The position numbers were made by a program, and so were the translations under genes. A stretch of DNA of 64,000 bases, taken from positions 1 to 64,000 of the forward strand of contig NZ_JAXIVS010000009.1 in assembly GCF_034259325.1 (NCBI RefSeq). Direction: 5' to 3'. This DNA comes from Hyalangium ruber. GTDB taxonomy: Bacteria > Myxococcota > Myxococcia > Myxococcales > Myxococcaceae. Positions 132 to 35,495 of the stretch are shown piece after piece. Numbering within the stretch: the stretch's first letter is position 1; the number at the start of each line of letters is the position of its first letter. The notes below the pieces were generated by a model. The model had not been told where the DNA came from and did not search any database. It saw only the letters and a list, made by a program, of their open reading frames with translations.

Positions 132-415
132 TTAAGCCTGCCTCCACACCTCAAGCACGCGAACACATCCAGGGCGAACGTCCTGCTTGAGCAGCCCGGC
201 CCAGTCCAAACGGGGTGTGCGCTCCTTCCTCGGCTCCTCCACCGTCGCGGCAAAGGCGGGGCTCTCCTCCTCCAGCCCCGGCTCCGCCCCTGCTTGAGGG
301 AGCACCCGTGATGACTGCGGCGAGTTCCGCGTACTCACCAGCGACTTCGCGCTGAACAAGGTCGGCATCGGCTTCCCGCCGTACCACGGGCTCTGTCGAA
401 CCACGACGCTCGCGG
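132..415 (-). pseudogene. IS91-like transposase, degenerate C-terminal remnant
   Basis: Read on the minus strand, this stretch gives pieces typical of the C-terminus of the IS91-like transposases common in myxobacteria: a PRLDWAGLLKQ segment, and then in a different frame RTFALDVFACLRCGGRLK, which holds the CxxC of the terminal zinc finger. The change of frame near 185-195 and early stops show it is not functional. The N-terminal and middle domains are missing here. A possible N-terminal remnant lies on the same strand at about 1400-1740, on the far side of the 425-1390 gene. The family call rests on remembered motif similarity. Confidence 0.5.
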
Positions 416-424
416 TTGTTTGAA

Positions 425-1390
425 CTACCCACCGGACCACATGATGATCTCGCCGGGGATGTACTCGGCGCCGAGACACGCGTGGAGCGGTGCCAGGTTG
501 AGAGCGTCGAGGACGTCGCGAGGCACGGGGCGACCACCAGGCATCTCGATGAACGCTTTTGGGGGGAACCCGTCGTGGTGAAAGCGCATCGCGTCCACTA
601 CCCCATCGGCCAAGGGCTTCTCCCGCGTGGCCCGGAGGAACTGGTGCTGGTGGCGAACCACCGCGATCCCATCGACATGGGGATAGGCGACAGCCGTGCC
701 GTCTGCGGTGCGATGGAACGACTGGTTCGTGAGGAGGCCCGACACCGGGCTCAGCAGGGCCGAGATGGGTTCGTTGCAGAAGTCGTCCCAGACGATGAAG
801 AGCAGCCGAAGCGCGTCCGCACGATGCGCCTTGTAAACCGTGAACTTCGCCTCCGCTGACACCAGGAAGTCCTTCACCGGGTTGTCCCGAGGGGGCGTGA
901 GTTGGAAGTCCTTCGTCGTCTCTCGAGGAACGCGTGCCGTGACCTGCAAGGGGTTCGACGAGCGCTGCCGCGCATGCGCGATGAGCTTGGGCGTCTTCAC
1001 CTCGATCGCGCACCACCTGCCCGCGATGAGGGCTTCGCATTCCGGGTTCTTCTTCCCGGCCGGGCCTGGTTCATGGACAACTTGCGGCGCTAACCCCTCT
1101 CGTGAGGCGGCAGCAACGACGCCCTGCGTGACGTAGACCTCGGCGAGGATCTGGAGGACCGCCTCGTACTGTTCCTCCCCAGTGCCCGCGATCCCTGCAA
1201 GTCGGTCGACCATCTCGGCGGCGTATCCCGGAGTCGCTGAGTCGATCTCGGCGAGCGTTCTGCAGAGGCCTACGGTGAACGGCAGCACCACGCCGCGCGC
1301 CGCGTTCGCAGCGAAGTAGTGGAGCATGTGCTTCGGGTACTCAGTCGGGACCTTATCCACGACCAGTTTCAGCGCCTCGTCGAACTGCAC
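425..1390 (-). CDS. Hypothetical protein with PD-(D/E)XK nuclease-like core
   Basis: This 321-residue protein has no full-length family that I recognise. Around residues 113-137 it reads [20 protein letters not shown], an acidic residue followed about 14 residues later by a hydrophobic strand with ExK. That is the layout of the PD-(D/E)XK nuclease fold. The C-terminal half has hydrophobic strand-like blocks such as [12 protein letters not shown]. It lies between degenerate transposase pieces on the same strand, which suggests an accessory gene, perhaps in defence or DNA processing. No signal peptide or membrane segment is visible. The nuclease assignment is inference from one motif. Confidence 0.55.
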
Positions 1391-1399
1391 AGGACCGGG

Positions 1400-1740
1400 C
1401 CTCCGTGAGTCGCCACGTTACCACAGGCGACGTGACGTGTCCCCTCCGCGCGAAGTCGGCGGCTTTGCCTCTGCGGAGGACGACGCATGCCCGAGACTGC
1501 GAAGCCGCGCGAGCCCGAGAGCACCGCCCAAGCACCGGGAGAGGGACGCCTCCGTCCGCGCCTTCGCGCCAGGAGAAGGACGCGCCCGTCGTCTGGCCGC
1601 GCCCCACCTCGCTTGCCTCCGCCAGCAGCGTGGCCAGGGTGTCCTTCACCGCCTCGTACAGCACCGTCCCCTCCGGCTGCCTCCGCCGGTACGCCCACCC
1701 GCGCTCCTCCACCCGCTCCTCCCCTGCCACACCTTTCCAG
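1400..1740 (-). pseudogene. Possible N-terminal remnant of an IS91-like transposase
   Basis: On the minus strand a frame beginning near 1740 reads [19 protein letters not shown] followed by ATLLAEA, which resembles the start of IS91-like transposases (an RRxPExTxLYxxVxxHxxxFLAxA pattern). Further on, other frames give short matches to the following Cys-rich region ([15 protein letters not shown]), with no continuous open frame. It is therefore read as a decayed fragment. Together with the C-terminal piece at 132-415 it would flank the 425-1390 gene. The rest of 1740-1840 shows no gene. Confidence 0.35.
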
Positions 1741-1839
1741 GGCACACGCTCCTGTCCGCCTCCCACGGGGTTCTCGTGAGCCCTGGGAGACCGGGGAACT
1801 CAGGCCGCTTGCCTCCAATCAGATTGCCCCTGTTGGGCC

Positions 1840-2002
1840 GCATGTGCCCCCAGTGGGCCCCTCCATCGGGGAATTGAACGGGACGAGACGGGACGAGACG
1901 GGACGGAGCGGAGGAACGAGCCACTGTGAGATCAAGGCGTTAGCCGGTAACAGCGCGACCTGCTTGGGGTTTTGCTTCCGCCTTGTTGCGGGTTCGATTC
2001 CC
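1840..2002 (+). repeat. 163-bp direct repeat, copy 1, ending in a tRNA T-arm-like sequence
   Basis: This copy aligns without gaps to 4274-4436, with about 13 mismatches in 163 positions. Both copies contain two tandem 10-mers (GGGACGAGAC), a small dyad around GTTAGCCGGTAAC, the shared block GCGACCTGCTTGGGGTTTTG, and end in GGGTTCGATTCCC, which has the form of a tRNA T-arm. Similarity stops at that point. No complete tRNA cloverleaf could be drawn. The arrangement resembles duplicated attachment sites around a cassette, or two copies of a small tRNA-derived RNA. Confidence 0.85.
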
Positions 2003-2017
2003 ATCGCATCCAGGCAG

Positions 2018-2056
2018 TAAGGCCCCGAGCGCTATCAGGTGTTTCGGGGCTTTCTC
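2018..2056 (+). terminator. Terminator-like hairpin after repeat copy 1
   Basis: GCCCCGA at 2022-2028 pairs with TCGGGGC at 2044-2050, flanked by AAG before and TTT after, so the plus strand gives a GC-rich stem followed by a short T run. It lies just downstream of the T-arm-like end of repeat copy 1, where a tRNA or small RNA terminator would be expected. The T run is short (3), so efficiency is uncertain. Confidence 0.45.
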
Positions 2057-2228
2057 GTCCGAGGCCGCGAGGGGCAGCCGGACGAGTTGGCCACTCTCGT
2101 GGCGTTGTAACTAGAATTCCGCCACCTCGGCGCAGTGGGCCTCCCAAGGAAGCGTGGCGTAGGGGTCGGTGGTCTGCAACTCTCATCCCATCTATACTCA
2201 AGCGTCTTGGACTCATCGGAGCCGCAAA

Positions 2229-4115
2229 ATGTCGAACCGCCATTCCTACGAAAAGGACGCGATTGAGCAGGTGTGCTCTTATCTGCAGACTACGCGTGGC
2301 GTCGAGTATCGGATTGCCGCCGAACATGTGCCAGTAGGGAATAAGAATTGCGACTACCTGCTCGCCCTCGTAGATGGATCAGCCACTATTGCCGTCGAAA
2401 TCGTCCGGCTCGTAGATGCGCCTGCATCCGTGGAACAGGAGCGGTGGAGATCTATCCTCTGGGACGCACTGAAGATTGAATTCTCAAAGCGTGGGATCTC
2501 TGGGTACATGGTGCAGACTCCCTGGAATCTAGACACCCCCCCAAGGGATATCAGAGGTATGTTGGCGCCAAAGGTGGCTGATGCCGTAGCCAAGATCCTT
2601 AGAAGCAACCCACACGCGGTAGACTTCAACGTCGATGGGTTTCGCTTCCGTCGTGCTCCCGAGTTGGAAGGCATCGGAGCTTACGCAAGCGGCGGGGCGC
2701 ACTGGATAGACATGGCTGGCGGTGCCGCAGGCATCCTGGAAGTTCTTGAAGACAAGGATGCACAGCTTGCGTTGCCAGCAACTGAGAGGATCTTGGCTGC
2801 TGTTCCGTCTGGAATTGAACTGAACGCCAACGAGATTGCCCGTGAGTTGTCTCTGCGCAAGGATCTGGACCGACTCCACCACTCAGATCTTGTGCTCAAC
2901 GTTCCTATTGGAGACGAGGTTTCCGCCGTCTACGCACGCGCTGTCCGAGACTACTTTGCTGGTCGAACTCCGTTTCCGACCGACCATACTGCATTGATCG
3001 ACCTATGGTTTCGCGCGCGTCTGGGCGACAATCGTGAAGGCACGTTTGAGTTGGTGCGAGCGCTTCGGGAGTCAAAAGGATCTCTCGGCTTTTTAAGCGT
3101 TCAGGCACGGGAGGCACTCGGGCATCACGGAACCAAGTTGATTGATCAGAATCGGCATGATGATGCTGTATGGATTCTGCATGAGCTTTACACAGATCCA
3201 GATCCATCGGCTGAGAAGCCAATACACAAGGATGCCATCACAACGGTTCGGGGCACTGCCGCTTTTCTTTTGTATAGGATTGTCTCCGCCGCTCCCGTTG
3301 GAGAACTTGCCAAATTTCTAGAGATCGCGCGCAGCCTTTCTGCTGATGCAAACCTAGGAGTCCGAAGGCTCGCAGGCCATGCGCTAATGGCACTGATGCA
3401 TTGGCGCGATTGCCACAAAAACAAGCAGCCTCTGCTCCAGGAGGAACTACGGCTTGCGATCAAACGCATTTGGCTCGAATACATCGACAGTGCCAGCGCC
3501 AACGGATTGACGGACGCTGCGAGGCATACACTTGATCGGGTTTATGACCTTACCGAAGTGGAAGTTGAGCACGTGATAGACGTGCTTCAGTACGGACGCG
3601 ACTGGGAGTCCGACGAGGTCTTCGCTCGATTTGTGATTTACTTTGCATTCCTTCGCTCGTCCGATCCTGGAATAGCGCCAAGCTTCGATGATGCGCGCCT
3701 TCGCGAGCGCCTAAAGAAGCTTCTGAGCGGAGAGCCGGAACTCTGCGGCCAAGTTGCATTCGGACTGCGGAAGAGCACACAGGAGCATCCAGAAATTCGG
3801 CGCACTCTTGAACCGCTCTTAGTGATGCTCTTCGACGCTGCGCGCGGTGAACGAGCTTTGAAGTTCACGTTGGATAGCGCCGCATTTTTGGCTCGCGATG
3901 GACTGCTTTCGTCCGGCACCGAGGCAGCAATCCTCCGTGCAGTAGATGCGGCTGGCCCATTCAAGTCTCACGAAGCCTACTTTGTCGCCGAGGGCGTCAG
4001 CGAGCTTGCCAATGCACTGGATGCAAATCGCAGCAGCCTTGACAGTTCTTCGCTTTTCACCGCTGTCCGCGATCCTGAATTGCAGATGGCGATAGCACAA
4101 CGCGGAGACAGTTGA
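2229..4115 (+). CDS. Low-GC accessory protein, possible nuclease domain plus helical repeats
   Basis: This 628-residue protein is of unknown function. The start at 2229 is chosen for its GGAG seven bases upstream; an in-frame ATG at 2169 is possible. The N-terminal 120 residues contain KNCDYLLALVDG followed by a strand with AVEIVRLVD, an acidic-strand-acidic layout like a PD-(D/E)XK fold but without the usual lysine. The remainder is mostly helical, with HEAT/ARM-like hydrophobic spacing. Base composition and codon use are clearly lower in GC than the surrounding genes, which points to recent acquisition. It is the only gene between the two 163-bp repeats. A defence role is a guess from size, composition and setting. 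Confidence 0.7.
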   Translation: MSNRHSYEKDAIEQVCSYLQTTRGVEYRIAAEHVPVGNKNCDYLLALVDGSATIAVEIVRLVDAPASVEQERWRSILWDALKIEFSKRGISGYMVQTPWNLDTPPRDIRGMLAPKVADAVAKILRSNPHAVDFNVDGFRFRRAPELEGIGAYASGGAHWIDMAGGAAGILEVLEDKDAQLALPATERILAAVPSGIELNANEIARELSLRKDLDRLHHSDLVLNVPIGDEVSAVYARAVRDYFAGRTPFPTDHTALIDLWFRARLGDNREGTFELVRALRESKGSLGFLSVQAREALGHHGTKLIDQNRHDDAVWILHELYTDPDPSAEKPIHKDAITTVRGTAAFLLYRIVSAAPVGELAKFLEIARSLSADANLGVRRLAGHALMALMHWRDCHKNKQPLLQEELRLAIKRIWLEYIDSASANGLTDAARHTLDRVYDLTEVEVEHVIDVLQYGRDWESDEVFARFVIYFAFLRSSDPGIAPSFDDARLRERLKKLLSGEPELCGQVAFGLRKSTQEHPEIRRTLEPLLVMLFDAARGERALKFTLDSAAFLARDGLLSSGTEAAILRAVDAAGPFKSHEAYFVAEGVSELANALDANRSSLDSSSLFTAVRDPELQMAIAQRGDS

Positions 4116-4273
4116 GGGGCTTCTCGTATGACGCTCGCATTCCTCTGGTCCAGCAGGTCACCCTCGACGAGAGGAGTTCCCACGGAGCCCACAGGCGAGA
4201 TTTGACGCTTGCGCAGTTCCACGAGCCCCACAAGCCCGCCTTGATGCGCAGCCGGTGAGGCATGTAGGGCACT
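4116..4273. other. Intergenic stretch between the low-GC gene and repeat copy 2
   Basis: No convincing coding region, RNA or regulatory site is seen in these 158 bases. Both strands contain short open frames without family resemblance. Together with repeat copy 2 and the palindromes at 4456-4498 it fills the gap up to the lipase gene. Confidence 0.5.
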
Positions 4274-4436
4274 GCATGTGCCCCCAGTGTGACCCTCCAG
4301 CGGGGAGTTGAACGGGACGAGACGGGACGAGACGGGATGGAGCGGGGGAACGATCCAGGGTGAGATCAAGGCGTTAGCTGGTAACAGCGCGACCTGCTTG
4401 GGGTTTTGCTTCCGGCTTGACGCGGGTTCGATTCCC
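4274..4436 (+). repeat. 163-bp direct repeat, copy 2, ending in a tRNA T-arm-like sequence
   Basis: This is the partner of 1840-2002, in the same orientation, the same length and about 92% identical. In this copy the final T-arm-like hairpin is perfect (GCGGG, TTCGATT, CCCGC) and is followed by CGTCTCGA. The matching CGAGACG occurs twice in the tandem 10-mers about 120 bases earlier, which is too far for an ordinary tRNA acceptor stem. The segment between the two copies, about 2.3 kb, carries only the low-GC gene. Confidence 0.85.
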
Positions 4437-4455
4437 GCCGTCTCGACCTTGAGAG

Positions 4456-4515: not shown

Positions 4516-5616
4516 TTAGGCTGCTTCTGGCTCGAACTGGCTTTGGGAAGCAGAGTCCCCCAGCCAGCCCGAGCTCATGAGCCACTGCAGCGTGGACTCC
4601 AGCGACTCTTGGGTGGACTGCATTTCCAACACCTTCTCGAGGGCCAATTCTACCTGCCATCGGTTGTAGGCCACGAGGCGCTTCTCCACGACTGGATTCA
4701 GTCGGAGGTACTCCTTCCGGAGAATCGTGCGGCACTGGTAGTCCACGGCATCCCCTCCCGACTCGAGCATCATCTTCACCAGGAGCAGGGGATTGCGGAG
4801 GTCCAGCAGCCACCGGGCGAAGCCCCAGTTGGCGAGACCGTCTCGGAAGCTCGGTGAGACGTACGTCGACGTAAAGCCGTTTCCCAATGACAGCAACAGA
4901 AGACCTCTCATGTCAGCCGGCCCGGACTCATGAGGTGCCTCCGTCTGCTGCGTGCTCGGGCTCTGGAGCACCTGATGAAGCGCCTGCGCCAGACCCACCA
5001 TGGACGGGTTGTTGGCGTACAGCCCTCCATCCACGTACCCGCTCCCTCGCTCCTTGATGCCTTGGTAGATGGGGTAGACGACGGGAGGCGAGCTGCTCCG
5101 CATCAACACGTCGACCACTCGCTCGTTCAGGTCGGGATCATCGGTGCTCCCGGTGTTGTGAAAGACCTTCGCTTTCCAGGTCCGGAGCCCGTTGCGCTTT
5201 CCATCCAACTGGAAGGTTGGGATCACCACCTTCTTGCGAAGGTCCCCGAGTCTCCTGTTTCCGAAGTGGTTGGAGAGGAAATCCCGAACGGAGGCCGAGT
5301 CGACCAGCGCGCTGATGCCGGCCAGTGTGAGCAGGGAGCGCCGAATAGACAGGCCGTCCTTGTTCATGGCGAGGAGCTCGCCCCAGAAATCGATGATCCT
5401 GCCCAGGGCAGCGTCTGGGTGCTCCTCGCGGGCGAAGAGCGCCGCGTTGACAGCACCCGCCGACGAGCCCACGAACAAGTCGACCTGGCCCAACAATGCC
5501 CGGTGCTCCGAGCGAGAATCCAGCATCCGCCGGAGCGCCCGCAGCATGCCCACCGCGACGTAGCCATTGCCGCCTGAGACGGAGGCTCCATCCATTGCCA
5601 GGATTCGGTACGGCAT
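4516..5616 (-). CDS. Patatin-like phospholipase
   Basis: This 366-residue serine lipase of the patatin family would hydrolyse phospholipid or acyl-lipid esters by a Ser-Asp dyad. The nucleophile elbow GSSAG lies at residues 50-54 (Ser52) and the DGG motif at 196-198 (Asp196), followed by NNP. The N-terminal glycine-rich loop that forms the oxyanion hole is unusual: DGASVSGGNG replaces the common DGGGxRG. The start at 5616 is preferred over upstream ATGs because GGGGGGA precedes it by seven bases. No signal peptide is visible, so it is probably cytoplasmic or delivered by another route. It is transcribed alone. Confidence 0.88.
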   Translation of the reverse strand: MPYRILAMDGASVSGGNGYVAVGMLRALRRMLDSRSEHRALLGQVDLFVGSSAGAVNAALFAREEHPDAALGRIIDFWGELLAMNKDGLSIRRSLLTLAGISALVDSASVRDFLSNHFGNRRLGDLRKKVVIPTFQLDGKRNGLRTWKAKVFHNTGSTDDPDLNERVVDVLMRSSSPPVVYPIYQGIKERGSGYVDGGLYANNPSMVGLAQALHQVLQSPSTQQTEAPHESGPADMRGLLLLSLGNGFTSTYVSPSFRDGLANWGFARWLLDLRNPLLLVKMMLESGGDAVDYQCRTILRKEYLRLNPVVEKRLVAYNRWQVELALEKVLEMQSTQESLESTLQWLMSSGWLGDSASQSQFEPEAA

Positions 5617-5783
5617 TCCATGTCCCCCCATCGAGAGCTTCTCGGACATCGTGCTCGATGGCGCCTCCGCCCACCAGACACCCTGGGCGGGCTTGGCACG
5701 GCAGACAACACTCTCCTCAGAAACGCGAAGGCCCCTCATCCCGATGGGAAGAGGGGCCCGGTGAACCCACCGTCAGCGCTGGC

Positions 5784-35489: not shown

Positions 35490-35495
35490 CTTCAG

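Follow-up and report, generated by a model that had tools for sequence, protein, structure and literature searches.

The 163-bp unit that occurs twice in the window (the whole 64,000-nucleotide stretch of Hyalangium ruber DNA that was analysed) is very probably the right half-site of a family of tyrosine-integrase elements, which targets ssrA, some tRNA genes and dispersed look-alikes of these genes. The window would thus hold an integrase-less derivative of the family, most likely a fixed relic. In Myxococcaceae, according to this model, the integrases would recombine at the T-arm of the tmRNA (ssrA) 3' end, of some tRNA genes and of dispersed look-alike sites. A complete element comprises, in this order, the 3' end of the target gene (core), a P' arm with a terminator and arm-type repeats, an integrase pointing at the core, the cargo, a P arm with arm-type repeats and a second core. 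In the window, copy 1 would form the right end of a first element. That left element is out of view, since the contig begins 1840 bases before the copy. The DNA between the copies would be a second element, made up of the relic of an Mx8-like integrase, one foreign low-GC cargo gene and copy 2 as its right end.

The two copies of the unit (1840-2002 and 4274-4436; Table 1) lie on the same strand and are identical, without gaps, at 150 of 163 positions, which confirms the repeats of about 92% identity in the original prediction. Both copies end in CGGGTTCGATTCCC. The enclosed gene was also correctly singled out for its base composition: with a GC content of 0.553 against 0.681 elsewhere in the window it is the gene of lowest GC, and the 1884-bp stretches with the least GC begin at 2101-2301, which is the location of this gene. 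The predicted terminator-like hairpin is indeed present after copy 1, with the sequence GGCCCCGAGCG...CGGGGC. The assignment of the repeat ends to a tRNA T-arm has to be modified. The T-arm itself is there, but the copies do not resemble tRNAs in general; the specific likeness is to tmRNA at its 3' end. Copy 2 together with the bases that follow shares 26 nt with the end of the genome's own ssrA (contig 6), and the Rfam tmRNA model aligned to the same sequence with 38.6 bits (E 2.8e-13), which is under the gathering score of 47 bits. ARAGORN detected no tRNA or tmRNA at either copy; its sole find in the window was a tRNA-Leu at 35495. The window element is not inserted in a tDNA, and the own ssrA is located on a different contig.

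Table 1. Coordinates and proposed assignment of features in the window.
Feature	Position	Strand	Remarks
IS91-like transposase remnant	141..305	-	tblastn with L079:7135-8124 (Zn_Tnp_IS91 and Y2_Tnp), E 2e-16
321-aa ORF left of copy 1	425..1390	-	without family match; likely belongs to the cargo of the adjacent element
245-bp stretch, putative transposase N-terminus	1595..1839	-	80-97% conserved immediately upstream of half-sites in many genomes
Copy 1 P arm, type I right half-site	1840..1989	+	arm-type repeats (CATGTGCCCCCAGTGGGCCCC at 1841) and hairpin CAAGGCG...CGCCTTG; same arm motif adjoins integrases
C-terminal relic of Mx8-like tyrosine integrase, putative left end of enclosed element	1935..2167	-	tblastn with L155:13745-15106, E 2.5e-24
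Copy 1 core GGGTTCGATTCCC, tmRNA T-arm with 7-bp centre TTCGATT	1990..2002	+	subsequent GCCGCCTCCAC deleted relative to G040 (L107)
Cargo gene	2229..4112	+	628 aa from second start, 648 aa from first; GC 0.55
Copy 2 P arm, type I right half-site; putative right end of enclosed element	4274..4423	+	
Copy 2 core GGGTTCGATTCCCGCCGTCTCGACCT	4424..4449	+	part beyond TTCGATT would derive from target site

From its layout we interpret the 163-bp unit as the right half of an integrase attachment site, i.e. an attR type site with P arm and core. A P arm of ~140 bp with arm-type repeats (CATGTGCCCCCAGTGTGCCCC) is followed by a core, which is equivalent to the tmRNA 3' end (GGGTTCGATTCCC-GCCGCCTCCA). The P' arm, the stretch from the core to the integrase, contains a terminator and the motif CATGTGCCCTCAGTGTGCCCC; the same motif also opens the 163-bp unit (CATGTGCCCCCAGTGTGCCCC). 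A second arm type, GTTGCACGTATGTCGCA, is likewise present on both the P and the P' side. With arm motifs common to both sides of the core, the site is arranged like a phage-type attP. The core, GGCGGG-TTCGATT-CCCGCC, consists of an inverted repeat with a 7-bp centre. Such an arrangement is the expected form of the core site of a tyrosine integrase, and we infer that the crossover takes place within the centre TTCGATT. The part of the P arm that adjoins the core has a stem, which is CAAGGCG/CGCCTTG, CAAGGCGATAG/CTATCGCCTTG, CCGGGCGGT/ACCGCCCGG or another pair, while the loop is conserved.

The half-site is widespread in the family Myxococcaceae. About 20 recognisable copies or fragments are scattered over many contigs of the own genome, and the unit is present in 69 of 96 Myxococcaceae genomes (14 of 26 genera), including six large genomes with at least 9-15 matches each. 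A sample of the phylum contained 58 positive genomes among 195, every one of them from Myxococcaceae. At the sensitivity used, the unit was absent from phage and plasmid collections, Mx8 included. All 21 cases of neighbouring half-sites less than 8 kb apart are on the same strand (p 1e-6). Units of 1.5-4 kb without an integrase are frequent; their orientation is always the same and their cargo differs. A recognised left end is missing after 67 of 89 half-sites, and many of them therefore stand alone, have decayed or form the outer edge of an array. The survey of other myxobacterial genomes, which had been proposed as a check, hence found a unit that is neither unique to the window nor tied to one fixed cargo. 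In this sense the idea of an integrated cassette with duplicated attachment sites has held up well, with the unit as an attachment half-site.

The complete elements connect the half-site with its integrases. They were found in ssrA, in tRNA-Asp and at dispersed sites, and in each a tyrosine integrase adjoins the left end, which bears the same arm repeats as the right half-site. The integrases of the family are 395-414 aa long and have a Phage_integrase and a SAM-like domain; in the own genome, where intact ones occur on contigs C3, C1, C16 and C6, they adjoin other copies of the same core. An integrase was found in 60 of 92 family genomes. Unit and integrase occur together in 53 of these 92 genomes and are both absent from 20, while 12 and 7 have only one of the two (Fisher p 7e-7, uncorrected for shared ancestry). 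Five genomes (L158-L162) have an intact tmRNA gene, detected by ARAGORN, the 3' end of which is the core; P' arm and integrase follow directly downstream. Insertions in tRNA-Asp are present at L163 and L181. One genome (G018) has a left end in tRNA-Asp and, ~13.7 kb further on, a right half-site that ends in the 3' sequence of tRNA-Asp; a truncated half-site lies between the two. The right half-site is followed by a terminator like that after a plain tRNA-Asp gene in another genome (G056), apparently the native terminator of tRNA-Asp.

In three classes (L163/164, L170, L169, L167, L168) the two cores of an element, left and right, match each other. These have the core of ssrA (GGTTCGATTCCCGCCGCCTCCA), of tRNA-Asp (GGTTCAAGTCCCGTACTCCTCGCCA) or of a third tRNA-like sequence (GGTTCGAATCCCGTCGGGGACA). 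The arm types of the left and right ends agree in all classifiable elements but one: left ends of type pII are paired with type II sites in 4 of 4 cases, and the exception is a pI element with a type II site at its right end. Many left ends elsewhere are only partly similar to the tmRNA end, which indicates that dispersed insertion is common. An empty site for a dispersed insertion was not found; the genes of the left flank are present in relatives, never joined to the right flank. A flank like CTGGAGCGCTCTCGCCGGAAGCCTCCGGCGGCG recurs before the core at dispersed left ends (L144, L145, L155, L180, L188, L152, L036, L098). This flank is possibly a third type of P arm or a dispersed repeat that serves as target. 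On contig C9 of the own genome, a 369-aa integrase belonging to this family lies directly downstream of a tRNA-Leu (taa) gene (L153:8205-9417), which makes the latter another target gene. Taken together, the architecture of the elements, their matching cores, tandem accretion and the existence of integrase-less derivatives are established at the level of sequence comparison; that the integrases are able to act in trans on the short derivatives is what we infer.

In several genomes from other genera, half-sites are followed by DNA that resembles the sequence after copy 1. In one of these genomes (G042, locus L155) this DNA encodes the end of a tyrosine integrase of 453 aa, the frame of which crosses the core into the neighbouring P arm. 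Its Pfam matches to integrases are weak but consistent, and it is 39% identical to the Mx8 integrase over 88% of its length (E 4e-66). Residues 358-453 of this protein are recognisable in the window at 2167-1935 on the minus strand, interrupted by one stop, one frame break and one gap; the last codons read through the core into copy 1. The enclosed element would hence once have had an Mx8-like integrase, nearly all of which has been lost, leaving the last 50-95 codons. The element has no intact integrase; the statement of the original prediction that there is none at all needs a small correction for this decayed C-terminus. Neither a P' arm of type I or II at the left end nor any phage gene was found in the window element, and an Mx8-like integrase was not found elsewhere in the own genome. 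Copy 1 also lacks the 11 bp (GCCGCCTCCAC) that follow the core in L107 (G040), a deletion which suggests that the element is now immobile. With the integrase lost and the left core damaged, the window element is most likely a fixed relic. The earlier deduction that it should move in trans or be a relic was a fair one, and the relic part of it agrees with the integrase remnant and the damaged core.

The 628-aa protein encoded by the cargo gene has no match in Pfam, PADLOC or NCBIfam. Its gene occurs in 3 of 92 family genomes, namely in the own genome and in two relatives among the 91 others (45% and 30% identity); no half-site was found near the two homologues. An AlphaFold model of moderate quality (pLDDT 66.8) has a C-terminal part that resembles a HEAT/ARM-like solenoid and an apparent alpha/beta N-terminal part; that the protein is a nuclease-plus-solenoid defence protein would be a guess only. 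Other cassettes are easier to read. A SitA5 polymorphic toxin gene and its Imm52 immunity gene are located in an integrase-less cassette of 2.9 kb, the two type II ends of which match, on contig C3 of the own genome (L032:14141-17040). The same cassette is present in another genus (G036, L078:13504-10720) with 86% identity over 2.6 kb; the match stops at the right core, and the flanks differ between the two genera. The own genome has 32 SitA5 toxin genes over the NCBIfam cut-off, most of them away from half-sites. SitA toxins were rejected as a general cargo, since only 1 of the 32 full SitA5 genes belongs to a cassette of this kind. A TIR/phosphorylase effector-like gene (CAP12-PCTIR; L107:7754-9685 in G040) is alone between same-strand half-sites 2.6 kb apart. 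Further cargo between or beside half-sites includes DUF6310/DUF5953 genes, a GmrSD-type nuclease and a ferredoxin reductase with a cytochrome P450.

Genes of several other kinds adjoin the half-sites. Immediately right of copy 2 the window has a gene for a patatin-like phospholipase (4516-5739, minus strand), which is similar to CBASS-type effectors. On the other side, the minus-strand remnants at 141-305 and 1595-1839 resemble the two ends of an IS91-type transposase and flank the 321-aa ORF. The end of an IS91 transposon was rejected as an explanation of the unit in spite of this remnant, as half-sites have integrase arms and tDNA cores. In four genera the arm region of a half-site contains a group II intron reverse transcriptase (L077:4885-6216, L089:6531-7862, L103 near 2149-3570, L036:5862-7115); these are about 92-93% identical over 1.5-2.1 kb. 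A group II intron was also rejected as the unit: the 443-aa neighbour of some half-sites is such a reverse transcriptase, yet the half-site occurs without it.

The bracket in the window could be read in other ways. It is improbable, though worth consideration, that the enclosed cassette can still move in the manner of an integron cassette, with an integrase from elsewhere in the genome acting in trans on both half-sites. The intact family integrases of the own genome could provide this activity, integrase-less units with P' and P arms exist (the SitA5 cassette on C3, L078, L096, L105), and one such unit recurs in two genera with different flanks. At the left end in the window, however, a P' arm of type I or II and 11 bp of the core are missing; no matching Mx8-like integrase was detected in the genome, and the 628-aa homologues are without nearby half-sites. 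A wider idea, which we regard as speculative and on the whole unlikely, is that of an integron-like economy in Myxococcaceae. A handful of T-arm integrases per genome would serve many integrase-less mini-cassettes (1.5-4 kb, with 1-2 genes including kin-discrimination and defence genes), which would be recognised in trans via the long P-arm half-site with its conserved hairpin and inserted at tmRNA-like chromosomal sites.

That the bracket arose through simple duplication, by homologous recombination between elements and without any site-specific event, is very improbable. Direct repeats of 163 bp could recombine, and some junctions pass through arm repeats (L036, L089), but this mechanism leaves the matching cores, the adjacency of integrases and the everywhere-different cargo unexplained. 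Hardly credible, finally, is a structured tmRNA- or tRNA-like small RNA that was duplicated and recombines by homology, which was the other proposal of the original prediction. It draws on the sub-threshold Rfam match of copy 2 and on the P-arm hairpin, the arms of which pair better within sequences (20.0) than when dealt between sequences (17.4, sd 0.36, max 18.7, 200 shuffles; relatedness uncorrected). Such a pattern would also be expected from symmetric protein binding. An RNA role for the conserved hairpin is possible. Single-copy folds were not clearly better than shuffles for either copy (z -1.45 and +0.96), and the arm motif recurs beside integrases. Furthermore, the 3' part of the core varies with the target, switching to the 3' end of tRNA-Asp or another tRNA with no matching 5' acceptor strand, and no pairing acceptor stem is retained. 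The T-arm is hence better explained as a recombination core. A tmRNA decoy or mini-tmRNA was rejected as well, because the 5' acceptor strand does not track the changes in the core.

The elements are of a known kind, that of tDNA-targeting islands with accretion and integrase loss. What is of interest is how numerous they are, that they are dispersed to places other than tDNAs and that many cassettes lack an integrase; related genomes hold dozens of similar elements, some with toxin or antiviral genes. The family is unusually numerous and apparently undescribed: a description of the half-site was not found in the open-access literature searched, and the open-access passages of SitA-toxin and myxophage papers that were searched contained none of these repeats. 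The half-site is a precise marker of the element family and of element ends in these large-genome bacteria, by which anonymous low-GC genes become recognisable as cargo. It also suggests, in a form open to testing, a vehicle for some of the toxin/immunity and defence genes of myxobacteria. Attachment half-sites can be far more numerous than integrases, and searches requiring an integrase would miss them.

Like integron attC arrays, the elements form same-orientation units of short cargo with a hairpin-bearing site at one end. Unlike attC, the half-site is one half of a two-armed attP, and the family integrase scored 58 bits with the integron integrase model TIGR02249, far below the cut-off of 265. 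Another comparison is with myxophage Mx8. As reported, the frame of its integrase crosses the attP core into the far arm (PMC6070905, PMC4383910); the L155 relative of the window relic shares this property together with its 39% identity to Mx8 Int. The Mx8 core region also has a tRNA-Asp-like T-arm. In contrast, the window element is without phage genes and has a core of the tmRNA type, and the 163-bp unit is absent from Mx8 and other phage records. The ssrA islands of Dehalococcoides are tandem, with a repeat of the 3' end of ssrA as their boundary, and have an integrase at the left edge; many have no integration module and were suggested by the authors to be cis-mobilizable (PMC3146451). The family described here resembles them in the tandem array, the ssrA-end repeat, the left-edge integrase and the module-less islands. 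The Dehalococcoides islands, however, use a serine recombinase and a 20-bp repeat and are within 100 kb of ssrA (PMC3146451), whereas the Myxococcaceae elements have tyrosine integrases, a conserved half-site of 163 bp and genome-wide dispersal. In the tDNA islands collected by Islander the element restores the tmRNA or tRNA gene, the displaced 3' fragment is at the far end and attachment is in the T-stem region (PMC4383910). Gene restoration, the displaced fragment and attachment in the T-stem region are all found here. The difference is that most half-sites of this family adjoin neither a tDNA nor an integrase, so that a search requiring both would probably pass over them.
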